Shown here: positions 4,423-9,201 of the stretch, in pieces | Layout of the letters: each line of letters starts with the position of its first letter | Numbering within the stretch: the first letter of the stretch is position 1 | Source of the DNA: Desulfosarcina sp. BuS5 | Lineage (GTDB): Bacteria; Desulfobacterota; Desulfobacteria; Desulfobacterales; BuS5 | Length of the DNA stretch: 64,000 nt | Direction: 5' to 3' | Assembly: GCF_028752835.1 (NCBI RefSeq) | Contig: NZ_CP087952.1 | Location: 1,345,041-1,409,040, forward strand | Position numbers and translations under genes: made by a program | The notes under the pieces: generated by a model | Seen by the model: the letters and a program-made list of their open reading frames with translations, nothing else | Database searches by the model: none | What the model was told of the DNA's origin: nothing

Positions 4423-5973
4423 CTCGATGATCAAGTTTTTATGATTAGCTAAATTTAAAGTTTGATAGTATAATCACGACCATTAAAAATATTAACAACT
4501 TTGAAAGAGCCCATTCATAATGCTATTAACTGAATCTGCACCATTTATCAAACAGTACATTGAAGATCTCAACAATAGCCTGGAGCAATACCAACCTAGT
4601 GCGGGATTAACATTTACCCAGAAAGCATGGCTAAGCTTTTGTCTTACCGGTATATTAATGGTAAATGCTGTATGTTGGGCAAAATTTGAACGGGCGAGTC
4701 TGGGCAATTATAAATTAGCAGCTCTATCTTGGATGTTTCGTAAGGGTAAGATTTCATGGGACAATTTACTTGTTGGAAGCGTCAGGCGTATTTTGAAAAA
4801 ATATGGTATCACAAATGGTGTAATTGTTTTTGATGAGTCTGATCGTGCCCGTTCTAAGAATACAAAGCGAATATACAAGGCTCATAAGCAAAAACACAAA
4901 GCAAGCGGAGGTTATGTTAATGGGCAAACAGTTGTTTTGCTTCTTTTGGTCACAGACTCTATAACCGTACCTATTGGTTTTAAGTTTTACATGCCTGATC
5001 CAGTTGTTAGTGCCTGGAAAAAAGAAGAAGAGAGATTGAAAAAAAAGGGACTCCCGAAGAATAAGCGTCCTGTCAAACCAGCATTTAACCCTGAGTACCC
5101 GAAAAAAATTCAATTAGCCCTGCTCTTACTTGAAAATTTTAAAGAATATTATCCTAAAATTACTGTTAAATGTGTATTGGCTGACGCTTTATACGGTTCA
5201 AAAGAATTTATGAATGGAGCCTCTAATATTTTGGGAGGAGTGCAAGTTATCAGCCAATTAAAGTCAAATCAAAATATACGGTACAAAGGTAAAAAAAAGA
5301 CAATTACGGATTATTTCAACATGATTAACAAAGGTGTAAATTGCACCATTCGTGTGCGAGGCGGTGAAAAAGTCAATGCAACAGTGAGCAGTGCCCGCCT
5401 TAAGGTTGATGCACACGATGGCAATGTGCTTTTTGTGATAGCTCTTAAATATGAAGGGGAAGATGAATACCGTTACTTAGCTGCCACTGATGTGAGTTGG
5501 CGCACAGTTGACATTATTCAAGCATATTCTTTGAGATGGCTTGTAGAGGTTTTTTTTGAAGACTGGAAGCTTTATGAAGGATGGGGACAAGAGGCCAAAC
5601 AATATGACGAAGAAGGATCAAGCCGAGGCCTGATCTTGAGTCTGTTGCTAGACCATTGCCTCCTCCTTCACCCTGAGCAAAAGGCCTGCATAGAGAACAA
5701 AACTCCCGTGTTTACCGTGGGAAGTCTACAAAAAAGAGCTCAAATGGATGTTTTGATGGAATGTGTCAAATTTTTGCTGCAACAACAAGATCCCGGTGAA
5801 AAGCTTAAAGAAATGGGGCAAGTTATCAAAAAAGTTTTCCGACTTATGCCATCGGGAAAACATATGAGCGGAAGAACCATAGGTAGATTGGAGCCAACAC
5901 CCTCTCTATCACGTAAATATTGTCCTTGCTAAGTGCTTTTGGCAAGTTCGTCATCAAAAACTTGAACATCGAG
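4423..5973 (+). mobile_element. IS4-superfamily-like insertion sequence, 1551 bp, with 5-bp target duplication
   Basis: The left end ctcgatgatcaagtttttat (from 4423) matches the complement of the right end, ctcgatgttcaagtttttga (to 5973), over about 20 positions with few differences. TAGAA occurs directly outside both ends, at 4418-4422 and 5974-5978, as a 5-bp target-site duplication. The element carries one DDE transposase gene. The intact duplication and full-length transposase suggest a fairly recent insertion. Confidence 0.88.
4520..5932 (+). CDS. DDE transposase (IS4 superfamily, Transposase_11 type)
   Basis: This 470-residue protein catalyses cut-and-paste movement of the surrounding element. 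Candidate catalytic acidic residues are in VIVFDESDRARS (about residues 101-112), CVLADALYGSKEF (about 220-232) and the YSLRWLVEVFFEDWK block (about 337-351), matching the D, D and WxxExxxxxxK pattern of IS4-type enzymes. The KKEEERLKKKGLPKNKRP insert is basic and probably DNA-contacting. The frame is full length without breaks, so the element could be active. I cannot place it in a specific IS subgroup; the 5-bp duplication argues against groups that make 9-13 bp duplications. Confidence 0.88.
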   Translation: MLLTESAPFIKQYIEDLNNSLEQYQPSAGLTFTQKAWLSFCLTGILMVNAVCWAKFERASLGNYKLAALSWMFRKGKISWDNLLVGSVRRILKKYGITNGVIVFDESDRARSKNTKRIYKAHKQKHKASGGYVNGQTVVLLLLVTDSITVPIGFKFYMPDPVVSAWKKEEERLKKKGLPKNKRPVKPAFNPEYPKKIQLALLLLENFKEYYPKITVKCVLADALYGSKEFMNGASNILGGVQVISQLKSNQNIRYKGKKKTITDYFNMINKGVNCTIRVRGGEKVNATVSSARLKVDAHDGNVLFVIALKYEGEDEYRYLAATDVSWRTVDIIQAYSLRWLVEVFFEDWKLYEGWGQEAKQYDEEGSSRGLILSLLLDHCLLLHPEQKACIENKTPVFTVGSLQKRAQMDVLMECVKFLLQQQDPGEKLKEMGQVIKKVFRLMPSGKHMSGRTIGRLEPTPSLSRKYCPC

Positions 5974-6404: not shown

Positions 6405-7762
6405 GGTAGTCCCTACAAAACAATGCAGGTGATTAAAAAGTGTCTCTGAAAACATGAATAAAAAAGATTTTTACTAAAAATTAAGATTGCTATAGACTAA
6501 AAGCAATATATTTTGTAGAGCACGGTTAAAACTCTATTCAAAGGATCGCAACCATGCAAAATACAGCAAATACAGCCCTAACACTTTTTCAGCAATTCCC
6601 GGACGGGTCTTAACTATCTGATATTATTATGTTATCAGACAAGAGTTTTTGCAAACTCTAAAATTGAAAGTTCAATGATTCCAATAAGTTAAGCTATTTA
6701 TGACCGGGAATTGCTGACACTTTTTTGTCCCAGGAAAAGCTGCAAATGTTATCAATCAACCGAGAACAAAATCACAAAGGATGGAGTTTACATAACAAAA
6801 TCCGATTTTGAGCCAAGACAAATGTTTTACTGCAATGGTGGCAAACATAGATTCTCAGAAACAGGATATTCCGATCTTTTTGGAAAGCATGGCAGTTTTA
6901 AAGAATATGAGCAAACGGCAAAGCTAAACTCTTACGGCCTTGGCACTGATGCAATTGCCGATGTACTTCAAAAAGATCGAAGGACAATTGAACAATGGCA
7001 AAAAGCTATTGGACAAAAAAGCCAGCAATTTCATCTATTTCTTTGTTTTACTATCGGACTTACCATTGTATTTCTCCAAATGGATGAACTATGGTCTTAC
7101 CTTAAAAATAAAAGTCAACAATTATGGGTTTGTATCGCTCTTGAATCAACAACAAAATTCTGGATCGGTTTCGAGTTGGGTTCAAGAACAACTTACACTG
7201 CAAACCGTTTAGTAAAGGGCATTAAAAAGTTGGGCAAATGGGGAAAAGATAATATATTAAAGGTCGCTACAGATAAATTAGCGGCTTACAAAAATGCGCT
7301 CGAAAACATTATGTCTGAAATTCCTTATGCTTACCTGCAAATTGTTAAGCGCCGAATAAAGCGTCGGCTTGTAACAGTTAAAAAATATTTTGTAAAAGGT
7401 ACTGTAAAAGATTTCCCCGGAAAAAGCCAAAACACCTCATTTATTGAGAGACTGAACCTTACCCTAAGGCAACATATCTCCTATCTTCAGAGAAAAACCC
7501 TGGGGTATTGCAAGAACAAGCTGAATTTTAGTAATGTAATGTGGATTAACTTATTCAACTATAATTACATACAATTTCATAAGAGCTTACGAATACGAAT
7601 TAACAATGAAAACGAGAAATTTATAAAAAAGTATAACCATAATACACCGGCAATGCAGATGGGACTTACGAATTCTTCACTAAACTGGAGATATCTCATT
7701 ACAGTCCCAATACCTTGTAAGTAGCTGATTTTTCGAACCTGCATTGTTTTGTAGGGACTACC
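6405..7762 (+). mobile_element. IS1-like insertion sequence, 1358 bp, perfect 26-bp terminal inverted repeats
   Basis: The left end begins ggtagtccctacaaaacaat at 6405 and continues to 6430. Its exact complement occupies 7737-7762. One transposase gene lies inside. No direct duplication is visible just outside the ends (left flank ...caaacgca, right flank caaattcaat...), so flanking DNA may have been deleted or rearranged after insertion. Positions 6431-6710 hold no gene I can support, only a 19-codon frame (6554-6613, MQNTANTALTLFQQF...) that may be a leader or a degraded N-terminus. Confidence 0.88.
6711..7724 (+). CDS. IS1-family-like transposase
   Basis: The frame opens at TTG 6711 and encodes 337 residues. 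The N-terminal part has a Cys-containing finger (FCPRKSCKC and FYCNGGKHRFSE), then a helix-turn-helix-like stretch (IADVLQKDRRTIEQWQK). The catalytic half shows QMDELWSYLKNK, an ATDKLAAYKNAL block and the distinctive IERLNLTLRQHISYLQRKTL signature, which in IS1-type DDE enzymes carries the Glu and Arg/Lys residues. A single gene replaces the InsA/InsB frameshift pair of classical IS1. The start is uncertain because only TTG is available at this point and the upstream 280 bases are unassigned. Confidence 0.82.
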   Translation: MLTLFCPRKSCKCYQSTENKITKDGVYITKSDFEPRQMFYCNGGKHRFSETGYSDLFGKHGSFKEYEQTAKLNSYGLGTDAIADVLQKDRRTIEQWQKAIGQKSQQFHLFLCFTIGLTIVFLQMDELWSYLKNKSQQLWVCIALESTTKFWIGFELGSRTTYTANRLVKGIKKLGKWGKDNILKVATDKLAAYKNALENIMSEIPYAYLQIVKRRIKRRLVTVKKYFVKGTVKDFPGKSQNTSFIERLNLTLRQHISYLQRKTLGYCKNKLNFSNVMWINLFNYNYIQFHKSLRIRINNENEKFIKKYNHNTPAMQMGLTNSSLNWRYLITVPIPCK

Positions 7763-7810: not shown

Positions 7811-8281
7811 TTAATTTTCCAACTGACCTATTATCAAATCATTGGCGGGTATATCTTTCATATTCTTTGAATAGTATGAGAATACGATTTTTCCCGCCCT
7901 GTTTATTATAAAAAGCGCAGGCATGAGTCCGAGTTTGGTGAGTTTCCACTGCTGTTTATATAAGTTGGCAATCTTATGATCAGGGTCCGGTATGCCGTAA
8001 AACGGGAGATTGTTTTTTGAAAAATATTTTAAGGTTTTTTCAGCATCGTGTGGAGTTATAACTACAACTGAAGCATTTTTAGCAATAAATTTATTGTAAT
8101 CCTGTTGCATCTGACCCAGATGCCTGCGCTCATATGGTCAGCTGAACCCGCGGATAAAAACAAGAACAACCTGGCCGACTTTTTGCAGTTTTGTGAGACT
8201 AACGCTATTGCCATTATATGTATTAGCAGTAAATTCGGGAGACTTATCACCTTTTTCAAGCGATTTTTTATTATTTGACAT
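7811..8281 (-). CDS. Peroxiredoxin-like selenoprotein with in-frame UGA (Sec48), free of cysteine
   Basis: Reading from ATG 8281, the frame is MSNNKKSLEKGDKSPEFTAN and continues through FIRGFS, a TGA at 8140-8138, then PYERRHLGQMQQDYNKF to the stop at 7811: 156 residues if UGA is read. Both halves share one frame. They form a single AhpC/TSA-like (PRX_like2 type) thioredoxin fold, with the UGA exactly where homologues have the peroxidatic Cys of RGxxCPFCR. The usual second Cys is Glu (U-P-Y-E), and no Cys codon occurs anywhere in the protein. A hairpin with a GGGUC loop follows the UGA at bacterial SECIS distance, and selB is encoded 4.3 kb away. It probably reduces peroxides through Sec. Alternatives are a nonsense mutation or a sequencing error. 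Without Sec reading, only a 99-residue fragment from an internal Met (8110) would be predicted. Confidence 0.85.
8107..8123 (-). promoter_or_regulatory. SECIS-like hairpin downstream of UGA48
   Basis: In the mRNA the sequence is GCAUCU-GGGUC-AGAUGC, a perfect 6-bp stem with a 5-base loop. The loop guanosines lie about 21-23 bases after the UGA, inside the 16-37 base window used for bacterial SECIS elements. It resembles the apical part of the E. coli fdhF element, which also exposes a GGUC loop. It lies within the coding sequence, as bacterial SECIS elements do. Confidence 0.75.
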
Positions 8282-8355
8282 GATAGAATAATCCTTAGAG
8301 TTCATTGTACTACACGCACAAATTCAACCTGAATCCGAGCGCCGATTCTTTAAAG

Positions 8356-9201
8356 TTATTTTTGCTCGAACCCTAAGGGCTCACAAAGAAGCTGTTTTAA
8401 TCTTTCGCTTAAAAACATGATCGATTCGATATCAAGATGGTTCAAAATACTCTCGTCAAACAAGAGTTTAACTTCAGCTTCGAAGTCATCATCTAAATTT
8501 TCATCCCAGAACATGAGTATTACCGGAATTCTGGGAAGGGGGCTGAATAAAAGTGCCAGATCTGCAGATCGGATTTCATCGGTCAGATCAAGCCCGCCAA
8601 GTTGTCTAGCCGCAATAAGCAATTCGCCGGACTTCCCTTTAAACCTTTCGATAAGAGGTTTTTCAACATGTTCTTTCATCGATTTTATCTTTGAGACAGT
8701 ATTGGGAAACTCTATAAATCCTTTCCATTTCCCGGTGGGGAGCTTGCTTCCTCCCTGGGCCATGTGATTATAGATAAAAACCTGTTCCCATCGGGTAAGC
8801 TCCGAACCATCTTTATTTGTGATGCTGTCTCGGGAAATGATGATGAAATCCGTAAAATATGGCAGTTCAAGAGAATACTTTTCTCTTTTTTTAATCAACT
8901 TGCCGCCGATCCTGTCCGGCAGGTCTTCTATTTTCATGGATGCAGACCGTTCCCTTGCCCATTTCAGCGCATCCTCAGCCATGTCTTTTTTGAGCCACTT
9001 GCCTGATGAATATTGTTTTTCAAGCTCGGTTTTGCATTTTTCTACAATATCCGCTGACAGGTGGGGGCAGTTTTCAATTGGATGCTTTTCAGATACCACC
9101 ATGCTTGCGAAGGCAAGGCAAGTAGAGAATCCACAATCTTTACAATTAGTTTTAGGCAGTATATCTCTATAAAGATCAACAACGGATAATGGCATTACCA
9201 T
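8356..9201 (-). CDS. DUF3786 protein with N-terminal iron-sulfur (CdhD/Fes-type) domain
   Basis: The 281-residue product opens with LPKTNCKDCGFSTCLAFA and HPIENCPHL, the Cys pattern CxxCxxxxC...C of the [4Fe-4S] domain also found in corrinoid/acetyl-CoA pathway proteins. From about residue 95 onward it matches my memory of DUF3786: SLELPYFTDFIIIS, WEQVFIYNHMAQGG and the PRIPVILMFWDENLDDDFEAE region. This type occurs in anaerobes and has no settled function; a redox or corrinoid-linked role is only inference. The start ATG 9201 has GGAGG close upstream, with a second in-frame ATG at 9195. A 22-codon frame overlaps this start. Confidence 0.82.
   Translation of the reverse strand: MVMPLSVVDLYRDILPKTNCKDCGFSTCLAFASMVVSEKHPIENCPHLSADIVEKCKTELEKQYSSGKWLKKDMAEDALKWARERSASMKIEDLPDRIGGKLIKKREKYSLELPYFTDFIIISRDSITNKDGSELTRWEQVFIYNHMAQGGSKLPTGKWKGFIEFPNTVSKIKSMKEHVEKPLIERFKGKSGELLIAARQLGGLDLTDEIRSADLALLFSPLPRIPVILMFWDENLDDDFEAEVKLLFDESILNHLDIESIMFLSERLKQLLCEPLGFEQK

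Follow-up and report, generated by a model that had tools for sequence, protein, structure and literature searches.

A predicted cysteine-free Prx-like selenoprotein with a UxxE motif in the sulfate-reducing bacterium Desulfosarcina sp. BuS5

The genome of Desulfosarcina sp. BuS5, a marine sulfate-reducing bacterium (GCA_028752835.1; PMC12013277), contains a gene that is well supported as a selenoprotein gene: its in-frame UGA is conserved, homologues carry Cys at the same position, a SECIS hairpin follows the codon, and selA, selB, selC and selD are all present. Insertion of Sec in the cell is what we infer from these features. As judged by alignment, the product is a 'Prx-like' Trx-fold protein in which the usual UxxC motif reads UxxE. 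It is most likely a one-Sec, thiol-dependent reductase and probably a peroxidase, its substrate, reductant and activity all being putative. The selenoprotein claim, made earlier in a sequence-only reading of the locus, is thus upheld, with a different placement of the Sec residue in the active site.

The locus and its product

The gene is present in a single copy in the BuS5 genome (4,175,088 bases, 2 contigs), and its nearest records outside BuS5 come from Desulfobacteraceae and Candidatus Desulfaltia MAGs. Positions refer to the window, the whole stretch of 64,000 nucleotides that was analysed (Table 1). The frame, start, stop, lone TGA and residue order RGFS-U-PYERRHL given by the sequence-only reading proved exact on re-checking; likewise, there is no Cys codon (0 in 156 codons), and selB does lie inside the window, Pfam finding all SelB domains. 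The same reading had the second Cys of a CPFC motif replaced by Glu. Glu51 is indeed present, but the nearest relatives that retain this Cys have UPFC or UPYC, not CPFC. The read-through product matches Pfam AhpC-TSA (PF00578) over residues 11-134, spanning the UGA (9.7e-21; 74.4 bits, above the curated cut-off of 26).

Table 1. Features of the selenoprotein locus and its surroundings in the BuS5 window
Feature	Position	Strand	Remarks
Selenoprotein gene (well supported), AhpC-TSA (PF00578), UPYE active-site motif	7811..8281	-	156 aa + TAA stop, zero Cys
In-frame UGA, codon 48, predicted Sec reading	8138..8140	-	UGA in 11/11 clade relatives, also in the sister clade with UPxC; Cys in L086, L088-L090
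Glu51	8129..8131	-	place of the second Cys in UxxC and of the peroxidatic Cys in true peroxiredoxins
Pro121	7919..7921	-	column of the ResA Pro and of the Prx catalytic Arg
AAGGA, likely ribosome-binding site	8292..8296	-	found by eye; 10 nt 5' of the ATG
bSECIS-type hairpin GCAUCUG-GGU-CAGAUGC	8107..8123	-	7 bp; GGU loop (8116-8114) begins 21 nt past the UGA
selB, Sec-specific elongation factor, 636 aa	1582..3492	-	Pfam domains
Fe-S + DUF3786 protein, upstream neighbour	8356..9201	-	same strand, 74 bp apart
Two transposase genes, DDE and IS1 type	4520-5932 and 6711-7724	+	between selB and the selenoprotein gene

Conservation of the UGA codon and loss of the second Cys

TGA is retained in every close full-length homologue within the order, and all of the clade relatives of the BuS5 protein (11/11) have UGA at this position. 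Four homologues free of stop codons (L086, L088, L089 and L090) have Cys at the Sec48 column, with motifs such as RGFACKQSQWHL; a search for Cys48 homologues, which the sequence-only reading had proposed as a check, therefore finds them, with the UGA column aligned to Cys. One of the four, L086, has as its nearest relative (support 100/98) L087, from the same family, with UGA at that column (RGFAUKQSQWHL), and the two form a Cys/Sec pair.

Among 61 relatives placed in a tree, the clade of the BuS5 protein comprises 12 rows (support 97/93) whose motifs are UPYE, UPYA, UPYT or UPFA throughout and none of which contains any Cys (12/12). Neighbouring groups are of the UPFC/UPYC type, or have Uxx[AS]/Cxx[ST]. 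Of the 61 relatives, 22 lack the second Cys, its presence or absence changing four times on the best tree and at least three times when well supported branches alone are considered, the direction of each change depending on the root. This distribution suggests that the second Cys has been lost repeatedly.

The SECIS hairpin

According to bSECISearch-type criteria, a bacterial hairpin lies 16-37 nt past the UGA and has G in the first two loop positions. The BuS5 hairpin, with its GGU loop at 21 nt, has both properties; its energy of -7.8 kcal/mol is matched by 1.8% of 1000 synonymous recodings of the gene. Its core stem is kept in 12/12 clade members, all of which keep CAT CTG ... ATG, CTG making up 46/162 of the Leu codons elsewhere in the same genes. 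The sister clade has another hairpin, GGCGC-AGUU-GCGCC, four nt further on, for which the synonymous-recoding fractions are mostly 0.001-0.03. Base-pair covariation is weak, as there is next to no variation in the five codons. Synonymous recoding was therefore taken as the main test of the hairpin, and covariation, for which nearly invariant codons are unsuitable, was dropped as a proof.

A rival fold, in which the UGACC that contains the Sec codon pairs with GGUCA around the SECIS loop (8112-8140, minus strand), has the minimum energy among the structures of a 52-nt segment of the window mRNA and counts against the mechanism proposed below. The same fold was found in L003 and L004.

Genes of this kind are easily overlooked. 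On Thermomicrobium roseum plasmid NC_011961.1 (L091 504-632), for example, a UPYC homologue has been deposited as a 'hypothetical protein' of 129 bp, cut off at the UGA. It carries the hairpin GGCGC-AGUU-GCGCC; selB was not found on that plasmid.

Fold and register of the active site

The AF2 model (pLDDT 91, pTM 0.88) has Bcp4 (Z 22.9) and the 1-Cys AhpE (Z about 22.5-22.8) as top structural matches, and the matches to Bcp4, AhpE and PrxQ obtained with Foldseek and VIA (Z 20-23) indicate a Trx fold of the peroxiredoxin type. The register of the active site was taken from profile alignments to the PrxQ/Bcp chains 2cx3 and 2ywn and to ResA, and from a MAFFT alignment with Sec-Bcp and Cys-Bcp proteins of the same order. 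In the PrxQ/Bcp alignments, U48 shares a column with the Thr/Ser of PxxxTxxC, Glu51 with the peroxidatic Cys, R44 with the Pro of this motif and Pro121 with the Prx Arg. In the ResA alignment, U48 lines up with the first Cys of CxxC, and Pro121 with the Pro of the facing loop, a column which we take to be that of the cis-Pro of the fold. These registers place Sec48 at the Trx/ResA nucleophile site and not at the peroxiredoxin site. The earlier claim, which put the UGA exactly on the peroxidatic Cys of AhpC/TSA-like proteins, is consequently not upheld, and a canonical peroxiredoxin site at U48 is ruled out: the PxxxT/SxxC(U) motif of true peroxiredoxins, in which the nucleophile comes last, is replaced by R44, U48 and E51 at its Pro, Thr and Cys, and the column of the active-site Arg holds Pro121.

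The residue three positions past Sec, which is Cys or Sec in the UxxC/UxxU subfamily, is Glu51 in BuS5 and Ala or Thr in the clade relatives. NCBIfam gives weak matches to a SelL-related redox protein and to ResA, the former (SelL_rel_redox, NF040769) at 63.2 bits, under its curated cut-off of 120. Invariant residues across 22 homologues include R44, F46, U48, P49, H54, G96, P98, D99, Y108, Q110, P121, M141, D143 and I144. Bcp-type peroxiredoxins from the same order, L019 (G053) and L017 (G018), have TxxU and TxxC, respectively, with the Sec at +3 relative to that of the BuS5 protein.

Proposed function

The explanation that we consider rather likely as a whole combines a SelB-decoded Sec48 without an internal partner, resolution by external thiols and a substrate that is most likely a peroxide. 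The reading frame, the UGA, the SECIS, the Sec machinery, the conserved Cys/Sec column, the loss of the second Cys and the fold are established computationally. In the proposed scheme, SelB would decode the UGA as Sec with the aid of the hairpin just 3' of it. Sec48 would stand where the Trx CxxC motif has its N-terminal nucleophile, a site that ResA-type enzymes also use. The usual partner Cys being replaced by Glu51, no internal Se-S bond would be possible. An oxidised substrate, for which H2O2 and organic hydroperoxides are the likeliest candidates, would be attacked by the selenolate, which would become a selenenic acid. As the protein has a lone selenolate and lacks thiols, its oxidised form would have to be resolved from outside: two external thiols, from a small thiol or from thioredoxin, may restore the selenolate, much as in glutathione peroxidases with a single Sec or in 1-Cys peroxiredoxins. 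This agrees in part with the sequence-only reading, which had suggested a single-Sec peroxidase dependent on an external partner. The single Sec and the lack of Cys stand; the peroxidase and its partner stay conjectural, helped by the PerR-type context in sister genomes and by the 1-Cys Prx-like fold. Since both the PxxxTxxC motif and the catalytic Arg are absent, the sequence does not by itself imply peroxidase activity.

The main alternative is a selenoprotein of another kind, a monothiol-type reductase in which the Trx N-terminal nucleophile would act by itself and whose substrates would be mixed disulfides, persulfides or other oxidised small molecules. Such compounds are abundant in sulfate reducers, and both the position of Sec48 at the first Cys of Trx/ResA, with Pro occupying the cis-Pro column of ResA, and the weak NCBIfam matches would suit such an activity. 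The structural match to 1-Cys peroxidases speaks against it, as do the operator of PerR type and the oxidative-stress genes that sister genomes have near the locus, and we regard this alternative as unlikely, though plausible enough to be kept in mind.

The genomic evidence comes mainly from relatives. In G170, whose orthologue is 81% identical, the selenoprotein gene has as its divergent neighbour a Fur-family gene with PerR as its best NCBIfam match, under the cut-off of that model. Beyond the PerR-like gene lies a flavin reductase-rubredoxin fusion gene, and a UspA gene is found on the downstream side. A perfect palindrome, TTAGAATGATTCTAA, separates the selenoprotein gene from the PerR-like gene. 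This palindrome lies upstream of the gene in G170 and G224, against 0/500 shuffles; it also occurs upstream of a remnant gene in G123, and it is absent from all other loci examined. Its core, GAATGATTC, is the same as that of the predicted PerR site of D. vulgaris ahpC (PMC545781). The putative PerR-like operator and its setting in G170 point to peroxide defence in that lineage. A rubrerythrin-like gene near the locus in G019 also fits the proposed function. UspA genes are found near the selenoprotein gene in three relatives.

This regulation is not transferable to BuS5, because an operator of the TTAGAATGATTCTAA type, with up to one mismatch, is absent from its genome; among inverted repeats, the 75 bases upstream of the BuS5 gene contain only a short TTTAAA-type palindrome. 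No operon partner is conserved across the clade, the Fe-S/DUF3786 neighbour being common to BuS5 and G019 only. Both the variable neighbourhood and the lack of an operator in BuS5 count against the peroxide-reducing mechanism proposed above. Downstream of the BuS5 gene lies an IS1-family transposase, and the two transposase genes between selB and the selenoprotein gene suggest a rearrangement.

Decoding of the UGA codon

Apart from selA, selB, selC (tRNA-Sec) and selD, the BuS5 genome contains a second tRNASec-like gene (L052 1497-1588), located beside a second selB (L116 4127-6013; C1:1778.1-1780.2 kb). With its tRNASec-like body, UCA anticodon, U73 and adjacent selB*, this tRNA has the characters of a selC* tRNA-Cys, and selC*/selB* systems have been described from Desulfobacterales (PMC7609411). 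The UGA might therefore be read wholly or partly as Cys by a selC*-type tRNA-Cys, residue 48 switching between Sec and Cys with the selenium supply, and the existence of Cys48 homologues implies that Cys would be tolerated at this residue. Against this stand the complete tRNASec, selA and selD, together with three observations which lead us to consider Cys insertion possible but not favoured. The selB* frame enters unrelated sequence where the last C-terminal winged helix should be, and so lacks it; the tRNA has G1:C72, not the A1:U72 of the Desulfobacterales type; and the BuS5 genome contains a single full cysS and no second one. Switching of residue 48 by such a tRNA is, in our estimation, quite improbable. 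A slightly better, though still slim, chance is given to a broader proposal, in which the clade would be a selenium-only one that repeatedly lost the second Cys and kept Sec, and residue 48 of the BuS5 protein would be toggled between Sec and Cys by two UGA readers.

The selD gene of BuS5 (L060; genome C1:3173716-3174642) has an in-frame TGA of its own, and the selenophosphate synthetase is probably itself a selenoprotein.

Codons 3' of the UGA have dN/dS values of 0.09-0.24 against four orthologues, as expected under purifying selection. A decayed orthologue is found in the G123 MAG (Candidatus Desulfaltia bathyphila; L048 4874-5222), where the upstream palindrome is intact and an internal deletion has taken out the UGA region, although an assembly error may be the source of this deletion. 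Gene decay thus exists, and a 99-aa ORF from an internal ATG is the likely entry of a gene caller; but that the BuS5 gene should be a pseudogene or contain a sequencing error at the UGA, its product being a 47-residue fragment or this 99-aa ORF, is hardly credible and is ruled out by the identical TGA in dozens of genomes, by purifying selection 3' of the codon and by the SECIS hairpin.

Relation to known selenoproteins

The Prx-like thiol:disulfide oxidoreductase selenoproteins share with the BuS5 protein the Pfam domain, a Sec placed first in the motif and a predicted bacterial SECIS, and the UPFC/UPYC sister clade is of this type. The BuS5 protein differs from these UxxC/UxxU proteins in that the second Cys is replaced by Glu, or by Ala/Thr in its relatives, and in that it has no Cys at all. 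The Sec-peroxiredoxins with TxxU (Bcp/PrxQ, PF00578) belong to the same superfamily and have the same fold, whereas the BuS5 Sec precedes theirs by three residues, coinciding with the Thr of PxxxTxxU, and the Prx Arg is replaced by Pro121. The closest fold class is that of the 1-Cys AhpE (PDB 1xxu, 4x0x; rmsd 1.8 over about 148 residues), which like the BuS5 protein has one chalcogen nucleophile and requires an external reductant. We take AhpE to be a true peroxiredoxin with PxxxTxxC, and the BuS5 nucleophile is located at the other position. As in BuS5, the GPX-like selenoproteins (UxxT; PMC13188914) have a single N-terminal Sec and a second position that is not Cys, but they belong to another Pfam family, PF00255, which the BuS5 protein does not match. 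Similarly, the AhpC/TSA selenoproteins of PF13911 (UxxS) carry a Sec without a Cys three residues on, but the BuS5 protein matches PF00578 and not PF13911.

The family tables of PMC9312934 and PMC13188914 list UxxC, UxxU, TxxU and UGC among PF00578 selenoproteins, and the cysteine-free UxxA/T/E branch is absent from both. A literature search for a UxxA or UxxE Prx-like type returned no occurrence of either string. For BuS5, deep-Sep arrived at 15 known and 3 new selenoproteins (PMC12013277), and the gene described here may be among the 15 known. The Prx-like selenoprotein family is thus already known, and the cysteine-free branch is to be seen as an unusual variant of it, not as a new family.

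Oxidised Sec can be resolved by the Cys partner of UxxC, which is retained in many predicted Trx-fold selenoproteins. In the present clade, all members have dispensed with Cys altogether but not with Sec, and selenium chemistry without an internal thiol therefore seems to suffice in the cell. In so small a protein with a single chalcogen, the insertion of Sec or Cys, the chemistry of the selenenic acid and the outside reductant could be read without interference. If the toggling between Sec and Cys were true, the BuS5 protein would offer a clean natural readout of which of the two is inserted.
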